Positions 9,433-37,183 of a DNA stretch of 59,559 nt are shown here, one piece after another (positions within the stretch are counted from its first letter, which is position 1; every line of letters starts with the position of its first letter). The notes under the pieces are model-generated. The model was given only the letters and a program-made list of their open reading frames with translations. It did no database searches and was not told the origin of the DNA. Both the position numbers and the translations under genes were made by a program. The stretch comes from Cytophagaceae bacterium (lineage in GTDB: Bacteria > Bacteroidota > Bacteroidia > Cytophagales > Cytophagaceae), in NCBI GenBank assembly GCA_025454925.1, contig JALONM010000012.1:1-59559 (forward strand), read 5' to 3'.

Positions 9433-11376
9433 ATGAAAAAATTTGTAGGATGGTCGTTGCTCCTGATTGTTTGCGCTGCGCTAGCCTGGTTTGCTTATCA
9501 ATGGTATTCGGCTCGGGGCAAAACGATCAATGGTTTTTCCCTTATACCGGAAGATGCCATTTATGTGCTGGAAACGGACCAACCTCTCGAGGCCTGGAAA
9601 ACCATTGCAGCCACTGAAACCTGGAAACACCTGCAAGGCAATGCTTGGTTTGCGTCTCTTACGTCCTCGGCCAATTCGCTTGATTCGTTGCTGCAAAAGC
9701 AACCTCAGCTTTTTGATCTTATCGGCAAAAGGAATGTACTTTTTTCCACGCACCTCAGCAGCCCAACTTCTTTCGACTTTCTCATCGTAGCCGACTTAGG
9801 AGAAGCGTCCGGAATTAAATTCATGGAGTCCTACCTCAGCACTATTTCCTTTAAAGGGTATCAGTTTTCCAAAGAAAAAATACAGGAAACCGATTGCATA
9901 CGCATGTATAATACCAGTGACAAAAGTACTATGTACATGGCCCTGGTTGAGACGTATTTAATTGTCTCTTTCAATAAATCTCTTTTAGAAAAATCGATCC
10001 TCGCAAAAAACCAAACTAACCTTAGCCAATTGCCTTCCATGAAATTGGCCAGCGAATCGGTAGGGCGTTCGGGATTTGCGCGCGTATACTTAAACTATAC
10101 CCAGCTCCACGATTATCTGGCGCTATATATGGGTCCCAACGAATACAACCGATATTTTTCAGAACATCTGACACTAGGAAGCATGTATCTGGAAGAAAAA
10201 AATGAGCGTCTCAATCTAATTGGCAGTGCCTGGCTTAAAGATTCAAGCGTCTCGTATTTTTCTGCCATGCTGAATTCTGGCAAGGGTCCTACGGAATGCG
10301 AAGAAATAGCGCCAGAGCGCACAGCGTTCTACCTAGGTCTTGGGTTCACTTCCTTTCAGACGTATTACAACGCGATGCTGGATAATCTTAAAAAAGATCT
10401 TAGCGCCTACGACGAATACATGAGTAACATCCGCAAGACTGAAAAGTTTTTAAACATTTCTATTGAAAAAGATTTTGTATCGTGGATTGATGACGAAGTA
10501 GCCTTGCTAGAGCTTACCTCAGCCGGAGAAGGTCTGGACAATGAAATGGCACTCGTATTGAAAGCTGGCAACATCGAAAAGGCTAAGGATAGACTGGAGC
10601 ATATTGAAAAAATGATTCGCAAAAGAACGCCTGTAAAATTTAAATCGATCGACTACCAAGGCTATAGAATCAGCTACCTCAGCATCAAAGGCCTATTTAA
10701 AGTATTGCTGGGAAAATTCTTTGCCCGATATGATAAGCCCTATTACACGATCCTGAATAATTATATTATTTTTTCAAATCATCCACAAACCTTGGAAAGC
10801 ATCATTGATGATTACCTTGCGAAACGCACCTTGGCCAGGTCGGAATCATATCGTAATTTCCGCTCAGGATTTGCCAACCAGGGAGCAGTATTTGCCTACC
10901 TCAACACTCCAAGCTTGTTTTCCTCCCTTAAAAACATTGCCACCAGGGACACCCGATTATCAATGGACTCCAACAAAGCTTATATACAATGCTTCAGACA
11001 TGTTGGCTTTCAACTCATTCCCTCTCAGCAAAAATTAGATGTGATGCTGTCGGAACAATTTGAATTAGCGAAAAAAGAAGTTCCTTCATTGGCCGACACC
11101 TTGCAGGTATCCGACAGTCTCGAAGCCTTATTCAAACTTCCATACATCTATGTAAAAGACCCCAATGCCAGAGAATACAAAGAATACTACGAAGACAGCA
11201 GCTCTATAAAATTAGTTGTAGAACTGAAATACGGCTTTAAGGATGGACACTTTACCGAATACTATCCATCGGGAGAGGTAAAGCTAAAAGGGAAATTCAA
11301 GAAAGATCGCCGCAGTGGAACCTGGAAAGCCTTTTCAGAGCAAGGTGAATTATTAGGCAAGTTTGATTTCGATTAG
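9433..11376 (+). CDS. Large membrane-anchored protein with C-terminal MORN repeats (DUF3352-like)
   Basis: The 647-residue protein has one N-terminal membrane anchor (WSLLLIVCAALAWFAYQW) and a long extracytoplasmic part. The stretch IPEDAIYVLETDQPLEAW resembles the opening of DUF3352-type proteins, which have no known activity; I hold this loosely. The last 60 residues (FKDGHFTEYYPSGEVKLKG, KFKKDRRSGTWKAF) are MORN-like repeats of the YwqK kind. It lies 30 bases after aroK and 14 bases before a radical SAM gene on the same strand, so one operon is likely. No catalytic motif is visible. The MORN tail may bind lipid or a protein partner, but that is inference. Confidence 0.65.
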   Translation: MKKFVGWSLLLIVCAALAWFAYQWYSARGKTINGFSLIPEDAIYVLETDQPLEAWKTIAATETWKHLQGNAWFASLTSSANSLDSLLQKQPQLFDLIGKRNVLFSTHLSSPTSFDFLIVADLGEASGIKFMESYLSTISFKGYQFSKEKIQETDCIRMYNTSDKSTMYMALVETYLIVSFNKSLLEKSILAKNQTNLSQLPSMKLASESVGRSGFARVYLNYTQLHDYLALYMGPNEYNRYFSEHLTLGSMYLEEKNERLNLIGSAWLKDSSVSYFSAMLNSGKGPTECEEIAPERTAFYLGLGFTSFQTYYNAMLDNLKKDLSAYDEYMSNIRKTEKFLNISIEKDFVSWIDDEVALLELTSAGEGLDNEMALVLKAGNIEKAKDRLEHIEKMIRKRTPVKFKSIDYQGYRISYLSIKGLFKVLLGKFFARYDKPYYTILNNYIIFSNHPQTLESIIDDYLAKRTLARSESYRNFRSGFANQGAVFAYLNTPSLFSSLKNIATRDTRLSMDSNKAYIQCFRHVGFQLIPSQQKLDVMLSEQFELAKKEVPSLADTLQVSDSLEALFKLPYIYVKDPNAREYKEYYEDSSSIKLVVELKYGFKDGHFTEYYPSGEVKLKGKFKKDRRSGTWKAFSEQGELLGKFDFD

Positions 11377-12383: not shown

Positions 12384-12507
12384 CTGTGCGTGAGGGATAG
12401 AGCGAAAAGCCCGCAGTGGTGCCTTCGGCGCCGCGAGGACTTGCAGCGATAGCCCGGCCCGCAGTAGCGTGGCGCTGAAGGCGCCACCACGGAGGGATAC
12501 GCCCAAC
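12384..12507 (+). repeat. Family 1 structured intergenic repeat, copy A
   Basis: The element reads TGCGTGAGGGATAGAGCG..., then a variable GC-rich stem region, then TTGCAGCGATAGCCCGGCC, a second hairpin GTGGCGC/GCGCCAC, and a tail ending ATACGCCCAAC. Copies B (29862-29968) and C (36786-36880, minus strand) share both conserved blocks; copy C also shares the tail. It sits between two converging genes, in the plus orientation, just after the radical SAM stop. Confidence 0.75.
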
Positions 12508-12545
12508 TATGAATCTTGAATTTGAGTATGGAGTTTAAACCCTAA

Positions 12546-12682
12546 TTTTTCAATAGAAATTCTTCTATTGAAAAACGACTACTAAAATCAAGGGCATGAG
12601 AAGGAATCGAATAAAAGAAATTCTTTTCTAAGCCCATGATTTTCTAAGTCGGGATTACCGGCCATGGATCTTCGATCCATGA
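12546..12682 (+). repeat. Family 2 structured intergenic repeat, copy 1
   Basis: It starts with a perfect 13-bp hairpin (TTTTTCAATAGAA at 12546-12558 with TTCTATTGAAAAA at 12563-12575). The body AAAATCAAGGGC ... AAGGAATCGAA follows, and the element ends in the hairpin CATGGATC/GATCCATG (12663-12680). It aligns with few gaps to the minus strand at 47540-47690. Together with family 1 copy A it fills most of the 356-base gap between the converging genes ending at 12368 and 12725. A further hairpin (TTTCTCAATT/AATTGAGAAA, 12685-12717) lies between it and the barrel gene. Confidence 0.7.
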
Positions 12683-12724
12683 GCTTTCTCAATTTTGCCA
12701 TCGCTTCAATTGAGAAAAACGGGT

Positions 12725-29861: not shown

Positions 29862-29968
29862 TCCTTTTCCGGCCCGGATAGAGCGGAAAGCCCGTGGCTG
29901 GGCCGTTCGTAGTAATGGCGTGCAAGTGGCACGGCCTTGCAGCGATAGCCGGATAAGCCGGCCAAAAA
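29862..29968 (+). repeat. Family 1 structured intergenic repeat, copy B
   Basis: It contains GGATAGAGCGGAAAGCCCG, then a variable stem (GGCCGT ... ACGGCC), then CCTTGCAGCGATAGCCGG. The outer arms CCGGCC and GGCC lie before and after. It shares both conserved blocks with copies A and C but has a different outer arm and lacks the CGCCCAAC tail. It is on the strand opposite to the flanking genes. Confidence 0.7.
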
Positions 29969-36785: not shown

Positions 36786-36880
36786 TGTTGGGCGTGTCCC
36801 GCTGCGCGGGCCGGGCTATCGCTGCAAGCCATGGCGCCTATGGCGCCATGGCTTTACACTCTATCCCTCACGCAACAACC
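36786..36880 (-). repeat. Family 1 structured intergenic repeat, copy C
   Basis: Read on the minus strand: GTTGTTGCGTGAGGGATAGAG, then a perfect 12-bp hairpin AGCCATGGCGCC/GGCGCCATGGCT, then TGCAGCGATAGCCCGGCCCG and the tail CACGCCCAAC. The ends GTTG..GCGTG and CACGC..CAAC pair, closing the whole element. It shares the tail and both blocks with copy A. Confidence 0.75.
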
Positions 36881-36895
36881 AGCATGTATTTAAAT

Positions 36896-37183
36896 GAAAA
36901 TCTCCATAGAAGAATTTCTATGGAGATTTTCAACGTTATCGAACCGCAATTAGGCAATAGAAATTGTAACGTGAGCCGAAAGCTCACCATCAGGGCGAGT
37001 TCCGGCAAGAATTTACGAGGAAGGAATGCGAACCCGTATTTCGACGAGGAAATTCAAGGAAACACGCTCTGCTAAAGAGATTTCGACTCGTAGTAAATGT
37101 ACTATTGTCTAATGGCGGTTGAATCCATAATCCAATCGCCCTACCATGGAATGCAATCGGGTACATTCCATGGTAGGGCGATT
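36896..37183 (+). repeat. Family 2-like structured element, long variant
   Basis: It begins with a hairpin of 16 bp (GAAAATCTCCATAGAA at 36896-36911, closing at 36931). The body contains GGAAGGAATGCGAA, similar to GAAGGAATCGAA of family 2. It ends with a perfect 20-bp hairpin at 37134-37183 (AATCGCCCTACCATGGAATG and its complement, 10-base loop). A small hairpin GTGAGCCGAAAGCTCAC lies between. The layout matches family 2 but the body is longer, so membership is probable, not certain. Confidence 0.5.
37134..37183 (-). terminator. Long hairpin after the glutamate-synthase-like gene
   Basis: A perfect 20-bp stem with a 10-base loop lies 26 bases after the stop codon at 37209. It could end transcription of that gene although no clean T run follows. 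It also forms the end of the family 2-like element. Confidence 0.5.

Follow-up and report, generated by a model that had tools for sequence, protein, structure and literature searches.

Three copies of a folded repeat in the window

The window analysed here, i.e., the whole 59,559-nucleotide stretch of contig JALONM010000012.1 from a Cytophagaceae bacterium, carries three copies of a structured repeat, the arrangement of which was read directly from the sequence and represents two subtypes, A and B. Copy 1 (subtype A) occupies positions 12387..12506 of the plus strand and is composed of the outer arm TGCGTGAG, the 5′ constant block (12395-12411) followed by variable hairpin 1, the 3′ block CTTGCAGCGATAGCC (12440-12454), variable hairpin 2 (about 12461-12493) and the closing GGGATACGCCC (12494-12504). 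Copy 2 (subtype B, plus strand, 29869..29963) is bounded by the outer stem CCGGC/GCCGG and is devoid of the second hairpin; its 5′ block (29876-29892) precedes a long irregular hairpin, and its 3′ block, again CTTGCAGCGATAGCC, lies at 29936-29950. Copy 3 (subtype A, minus strand, 36788..36875) proceeds from the 5′ block (36866-36850) through hairpin 1 ATGGCGCCATAGGCGCCAT to the 3′ block CTTGCAGCGATAGCC (36828-36814), a small hairpin 2 and the closing GGGACACGCCC. Three copies sharing two constant blocks had been proposed in the initial annotation, and all of them were confirmed at their positions and strands; absent from that description were hairpin 2 and the outer stem of the GCGTG/CACGC type in copies 1 and 3, as well as the outer stem of copy 2. 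With the covariance model R1, trained on 21 copies, copy 2, which is absent from the training sets of both R1 and the joint model R2, scored 54.3 bits (E 7.6e-12); copies 1 and 3, which belong to both training sets, scored 77.4 bits (match 12389-12464, E 1.1e-18; 66.8 bits by R2) and 90.8 bits (E 1.1e-22), respectively.

A second repeat block made of nested palindromes (CAATAGAAATTCTTCTATTG, CATGGATCTTCGATCCATG and others) was read at 12538..12695 of the minus strand, and a part of the same block (CTCCATAGAAATTCTTCTATGGAG), recognised from the sequence and the consensus, stands before copy 3 at 36880..36930 of the minus strand. In the consensus of 65 upstream flanks this block appears upstream of many subtype A copies; its nested hairpins contain CATGGATCnnnGATCCATG and CTCCATAGAA..TTCTATGGAG, and it adjoins many copies of this subtype on either side.

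A large family with a common fold and its relation to Flavo-1

The three copies constitute a small share of a large family populating the same genome (4,523,365 bases in 135 contigs, ~4.5 Mb). The 15-mer CTTGCAGCGATAGCC has 85 exact genomic matches (47 forward and 38 reverse), the reversed pattern having none, and 149 of the 150 own-genome candidates scored by R1 pass, all with E 8.4e-4 or better. Instead of only three chance-like matches, envisaged earlier as one possible outcome, the genome scan with the covariance model gave at least 149 copies, and chance similarity is ruled out by the ratio of 85 to 0 matches and by R1 matches in 15 of 58 relatives. Among the 83 copies having both blocks, 68 belong to subtype A (TTGCGTGAGGGATAGAGyGnAAAGCC - hairpin 1 - GGCTTGCAGCGATAGCCCGrCCC - hairpin 2 - GGGACACGCCCAA) and 15 to subtype B (GGCCCGGATAGAGCGGAAAGCC - hairpin - CTTGCAGCGATAGCCGGATnAGCCG), the core being common to both; the unit is imperfectly palindromic and spans ~85-120 nt. 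This set includes 80 of the 85 exact copies and three near matches, i.e., 83 of 95 loose matches to the 3′ block; the remaining 12, lacking the 5′ block, are chance matches, the inverted pair L009, and copies that are truncated, whether at contig ends or in some other way. Hairpin 1 varies from 20 to 56 nt. That the hairpins differ in sequence yet are retained as stems, as originally suggested, is borne out by 76 distinct hairpins in the 83 folded copies, with a mean z of -5.3 against mononucleotide shuffles (z < -2 in 76 of 83), and by arm swapping: for the 76 distinct hairpins own arms gave -26.8 kcal/mol on average versus -18.7 for swapped ones (751 swaps), although the own partner was the best in only 33 of the 76 because the GGCGCC centre is common to many hairpins. 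In L009 (about 1997-2021) the inverse of the 3′ block takes the place of the 5′ constant block, resulting in a near-perfect palindrome, and hairpin 1 of L025 and of L013 (from 1967) has G runs of 17 and 19 nt faced by only 5 and 3 C; these anomalies suggest copying errors at hairpins, with slippage as if ongoing, or errors of assembly.

The two constant blocks pair with each other to form a single helix, the non-standard positions of which are matched, GGATAGAGnGnA facing GCAGCGATAGCC. It is enclosed by an outer stem, GCGTG/CACGC and GGG/CCC or GGC/GCC, and followed further in by the stem AAGCC/GGCTT. Compensatory changes, the search for which had been recommended in the initial annotation, were found in a joint alignment of 22 sequences from the own genome, the sister genus, Flavo-1 loci elsewhere and Bacteroidales plasmids: standard pairs fill 90.4% of cells as compared to 72.9% after shuffling, 8 of 12 core pairs show compensatory changes, and the 38 doubly changed cells exceed the 10.5 expected from shuffles, none of 500 being as high, with the reservation that the rows were picked for good alignment (as in both alignments, A1 and A2) and group coverage and hence are not a random sample. 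Pairing in helix 1 has no exception among the 22 rows, and sliding the partner by 1-3 columns reduces pairing to 18-47%. The own-genome alignment taken alone is weaker, its four doubly changed pairs being a level reached by 146 of 500 shuffles, while its 18 doubly changed cells were reached by none. Loop bases are coupled as well. In copies fitting the two loop patterns (76 own, 46 sister-genus and 15 Flavo-1), the pair following GAT is A-T, C-G or T-A in 75, 43 and 14 cases, respectively; in conforming own copies it is always A-T, and in genome G036 it consists of G and C. An extra loop base is present on both sides in 27 sister-genus copies, on neither side in 14 and unmatched in 5 (Fisher p 2.8e-7).

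The described family to be compared is Flavo-1 (RF01705), which Rfam classifies as "Gene; sRNA" with no function given and represents by a 76-position model with a gathering score of 42 bits. The window copies score 16.6 (copy 1), 28.2 (copy 2; E 2e-4 for a 161-nt stretch) and 25.1 bits (copy 3; E 0.0016 for a 181-nt stretch), four unrelated families obtaining more bits than Flavo-1 at copy 1; being below 42 bits, they are termed divergent relatives rather than members by the Rfam rule. A dedicated search of the own genome returned five Flavo-1 matches at E<=0.001, the only one over the cut-off being C85:11341 (47.2 bits), which also carries the 15-mer CTTGCAGCGATAGCC; of five other loci examined, four had a Flavo-1 match coinciding with the copy, with 24.3-31.7 bits. 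The core helix and internal loop are homologous: copies 2 and 3 align in register with Flavo-1, the match of copy 1 covering the same stretch, and the letters of these parts coincide. The window copies are, nevertheless, one base short on each loop side relative to most Flavo-1 loci and possess GC-rich hairpins. Their outer stem and, for subtype A, their second hairpin lie beyond the 76 positions of the model; both are new features of the family. Intermediates between the two kinds are L095, L099, L100 and L101. The Flavo-1 locus L095, scoring 71.9 bits with the Rfam model, has the subtype A frame TTGCATGAGGG...GATAGCCCGACCC...GGGGCATGCCC, and the frame of L101 is of subtype A, too. Model R2 detects both kinds, partly by construction as it was trained on both. 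From the Rfam matches, the frames of L095 and L101 and the performance of R2, it follows that we deal with one family, wider than the Rfam model, and both this unity and the fold are well supported. The likeness to intergenic sequences of other Bacteroidota, tentatively suggested in the initial annotation, was real and corresponds to Flavo-1 in the wide sense. As to its caveat that the novelty would be lost if the copies matched a family already in Rfam, such a match exists for one sister copy (47.2 bits), whereas all window copies stay below 42. Flavo-1 is among the most abundant sRNA families according to a review (PMC9029176); neither there nor in the other literature examined is its function stated. 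None of the open-licence PMC papers searched, among them PMC2864571, PMC9723704, PMC9029176, PMC6006769 and PMC3733652, was seen to describe Flavo-1 as mobile DNA, and searches of the literature on Flavobacterium and Bacteroidetes repeats and for sequence strings gave nothing recognisable as the element among the matches listed.

Genomic placement and distribution

The intergenic location noted for the window copies holds genome-wide: with a simple gene caller, 83 of the 85 exact copies lie clear of genes, as against 19% of random 100-nt stretches, 80.7% of which overlap a gene. For the 69 copies flanked by genes on both sides, 38 tandem, 23 convergent and 8 divergent contexts were counted, and the tandem ones divide into 20 sense and 18 antisense, demonstrating the lack of a preferred orientation. 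The ends of the unit are sharp. In the sister genus g5, 109 of 115 matches of one copy from species G010 in its three congeners end at query positions 9673-9685; the start falls at 9556-9565 for 83 of them and at 9573-9578 for another 18, with 79 sharing the main start and end (ranges were copied by hand and then counted). TT and AA at the unit borders are conserved like the unit itself. Flanks of subtype B have nothing in common beyond the unit save one pair among 15 copies, and those of subtype A retain a thin, decayed similarity over ~250 nt upstream and 300-400 nt downstream, so that a part of the copying may concern a larger repeat; a coding origin of the downstream flank was rejected, as no consensus frame is open throughout. 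Flanking duplications, which were also to be looked for, were not found at 4-6 nt, the range covered by the test (2-3 nt being outside its reach): no offset was supported by three or more copies among 66 own and 48 sister-genus ones. A MITE of a DDE transposon generating target-site duplications of at least 4 nt does not agree with this result.

Five orthologous intergenic sites (S1-S5) differ in the presence of a copy among four congeneric g5 species, and at two of them reversed copies occur; the sites were chosen since a copy or a gap had been seen there, so that their number is not a rate. At S1 R1 finds no copy in G017 and G004, one in G010 and an inverted pair in G014, the copy common to G010 and G014 having different hairpin tips. 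Site S2 contains two inverted units in G017, one unit in G014, none by R1 in G010 and one in G004, which in G017 is matched most closely by a sequence pointing the other way. At S3, compared for three species, the copy is present in G017 only, G004 and G014 having another hairpin. Site S4 precedes an ORF which, judging from its first residues, we take to be hemB-like; there G017 has 13 nt, G014 and G004 carry a copy in one direction and G010 in the other, where a part of the flank also looks reversed by eye. At S5 (query 15.9-16.0 kb) copies are present in G010 and G014, and none is detected by R1 in G017 and G004. A clean empty site bearing a target duplication was not encountered, and since the segments compared are mostly 70-91% identical, loss is indistinguishable from gain. 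Both the variation in presence and direction at orthologous sites and the lack of a preferred orientation toward genes are new for this family. A 5′ cis-regulatory RNA with fixed orientation, considered as a candidate, does not conform to the 20 sense and 18 antisense contexts and to copies in both directions before the hemB-like ORF.

These observations bear upon the proposal that the family is a true structured RNA, as the Rfam label implies, i.e., a multi-copy small RNA or a protein-binding site of RNA that would be expressed from numerous loci. Conserved internal loops are common in protein-binding RNAs, and the strong covariation with compensatory changes is also expected of RNA. A gene or leader RNA should, however, keep its orientation and place, which this family does not, and at least 149 copies are unusual for an sRNA gene. 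Published data can be read both ways. In the table of a 2010 paper Flavo-1 is marked "y" as a probable RNA and as not cis-regulatory (PMC2864571), and a transcriptome study of F. psychrophilum found several 5′ transcribed regions at Flavo-1 matches; the same study, on the other hand, reports that the matches in this species are indistinctly sense or antisense to transcribed regions, many being outside of them (PMC9723704). The behaviour of the window family altogether speaks against the label "sRNA gene", and we regard the structured RNA as unlikely, the argument from orientation and place favouring a DNA repeat.

Beyond the own genome, the exact 15-mer CTTGCAGCGATAGCC is present in 3 of 58 relatives, and R1 matches occur in 16 of 59 genomes including the own one (up to 85 candidates scored in each), with 58-66 copies in each of the four g5 species and 18 in G003. 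On the scale of the phylum, the Flavo-1 model detects 27 of 198 genomes, 21 of them over the cut-off, under strict filters and with 22 candidates scored per genome, conditions under which the own genome gives 0 matches instead of the five obtained in the dedicated search; at least 21 or at least 22 matches were scored in each of nine genomes of genus g48. R2 detects 32 of the 198, the own genome included. The strict own form was encountered as seven stretches in four MAGs (Bacteroidetes bacterium SZAS-21, PH2015_14S_48_7, Marivirga sp. ANT-B6 and Chitinophagaceae UBA1930), the own genome possibly being left out of this count. Family copies within larger repeats were noticed in L258 and at contig starts of G125 (L261, L262 and L263); about 590-600 nt are common to contig starts at 86-97% identity, and local duplications of 231 and 422 nt were also observed.

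Bacteroidales plasmids harbour a compact form with GCGTT/AACGC, found in 85 of 72,556 plasmid records, 82 of which are from Bacteroides, Phocaeicola or Parabacteroides and include pBF9343 and p5482; window copy 3 itself has no match in plasmids. A sister-genus copy has no match in phages, the plasmid form occurs in 2 of 50,697 phage records, and viral contigs gave 0 matches to the own form and eight stretches of a looser one. Some plasmid copies overlap annotated ORFs, which counts against an intergenic DNA repeat. In pBF9343 (L237 5001-5669) the plasmid form lies between a recombinase gene and a gene for an ArdC-like ssDNA-binding protein, and in p5482 (L238 1912-1995) near an ArdC-like gene. 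It might be supposed that the element is a plasmid recombination or single-strand signal, namely, a hairpin of the leading region or a site at which a serine recombinase inverts DNA, and that it later reached chromosomes as well, in line with the number of matching plasmid records, the location of the copy in pBF9343-like plasmids directly after the recombinase gene and before the ArdC-like one, and the reversed copies at S2 and S4. Other plasmid copies are, however, located next to a JAB-domain gene, past an ATP-binding gene or after the transfer genes of p5482, and sharing within a plasmid family reflects common descent; moreover, the reversal at S4 seems by eye to include flanks and the reversed unit at S2 may be a remnant of an inverted pair, so that the element itself need not be the cause of inversion. 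This supposition appears very improbable. Its leading-region version in particular was rejected, some copies being near ArdC or JAB genes and others elsewhere.

Candidate enzyme and nature of the element

Since RAYTs of subclass 2.6 from Bacteroidetes have atypical flanking structures, a Y1_Tnp protein is a natural candidate for the mobilising enzyme. The repeat would then be a REP-like element moved by a Bacteroidota-type Y1 (HUH) REP-associated tyrosine transposase of this subclass, whose genes are flanked, according to PMC6006769, by atypical structures with no GT[AG]G foot. A GTAG/GTGG foot was not found at the hairpins of our family either, the listed units starting TTGCGTGAGGG-like or GGCCCGG-like, and the lack of 4-6-nt duplications suits the HUH mechanism. 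One of two partial Y1 matches in the own genome is located about 260 nt from a copy, and in G036 the sole R2 match is about 190 nt from the sole Y1 match, a single case met after examining many genomes. Cognate REPs normally flank the transposase gene, whereas three tests on overlapping sets of loci gave no support for such a link: a copy was found at 1 of 13 Y1 loci with the Flavo-1 model, at 0 of 20 (from 31 Y1 matches in G003 and the four g5 species) with R1 and at 2 of 52 with R2, 31 of these 52 being in family-bearing genomes, and the last value is close to the chance expectation roughly estimated for one copy per 30-60 kb. Y1 is present in 23 of 27 Flavo-1 genomes versus 122 of 171 others, the difference being weak, and two of the four lacking a Y1_Tnp match are rich in Flavo-1 (at least 22 matches in G139 and 21 in G193). 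The Y1 gene of G036 (L257 1000-1800) encodes the motif YIKNQKVHH, assigned to subclass 1.2 in PMC6006769. On its flanks this gene has short palindromes, among them GAAGTCCTTCGGACTTC, that may be its own repeats, and one Flavo-1-type copy is nearby. In the own genome, a truncated Y1/RAYT-like ORF (L083 1-462, G000:C54) ends where the palindrome block begins; it has QVH in place of HVH, the usual form of the HUH motif (PMC6006769), and judging from the sequence is probably dead. Taken together, mobilisation by an enzyme of this subclass seems doubtful at best.

We favour, with moderate confidence, the interpretation that the copies in the window belong to an extended Flavo-1 family and represent a REP/BOX-like intergenic DNA repeat that functions as a single folded strand; the DNA reading as such is likely, though unproven. 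The initial annotation, which offered a mobile palindromic element or a structured RNA, named the right pair of readings, and the evidence leans to the first of them. Direct observation provides a fold traced by covariation, the unity of the family, its many copies and their location between genes, indifference to orientation, and copies present, absent or reversed at orthologous sites; high copy number, intergenic location, palindromic structure and variable presence are traits of REP elements. The constant helix with its internal loop might be the feature recognised by a protein; the arms of the hairpins would be free to change provided that pairing stays. The active form may be a folded single-stranded DNA, and by analogy with REP elements a putative enzyme could spread it in trans.

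REPs and REPINs of Proteobacteria are likewise abundant, intergenic, mismatched palindromes occurring in both orientations and as inverted pairs, and such pairs are seen in the sister genus at S1 in G014 and at S2 in G017. In contrast to REPs, the family has no GTAG/GTGG foot at the unit start and no linked RAYT gene, its unit is longer, and subtype A contains two hairpins. BOX and RUP of pneumococcus and RU-type sequences of enterobacteria are also short non-coding interspersed repeats; in the present family no 4-6-nt target duplication was found and the enzyme is only putative.

A broader proposal, to which we assign somewhat less than an even chance, is that Flavo-1 as a whole is not an RNA but a mobile DNA repeat of Bacteroidota chromosomes and conjugative plasmids, active as a folded single strand, in which a strictly conserved non-standard helix is read by a putative enzyme while the arms vary freely yet pair. 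If Flavo-1 turns out to be DNA, the label "sRNA" would be wrong for many annotated loci, and the covariation that usually serves to prove an RNA would in this case stem from a folded strand of DNA. The search for the enzyme is now feasible with a single general model (R2) and the sites differing between species, and, should the proposal be true, Bacteroidota would gain a REP-like repeat with no known enzyme.
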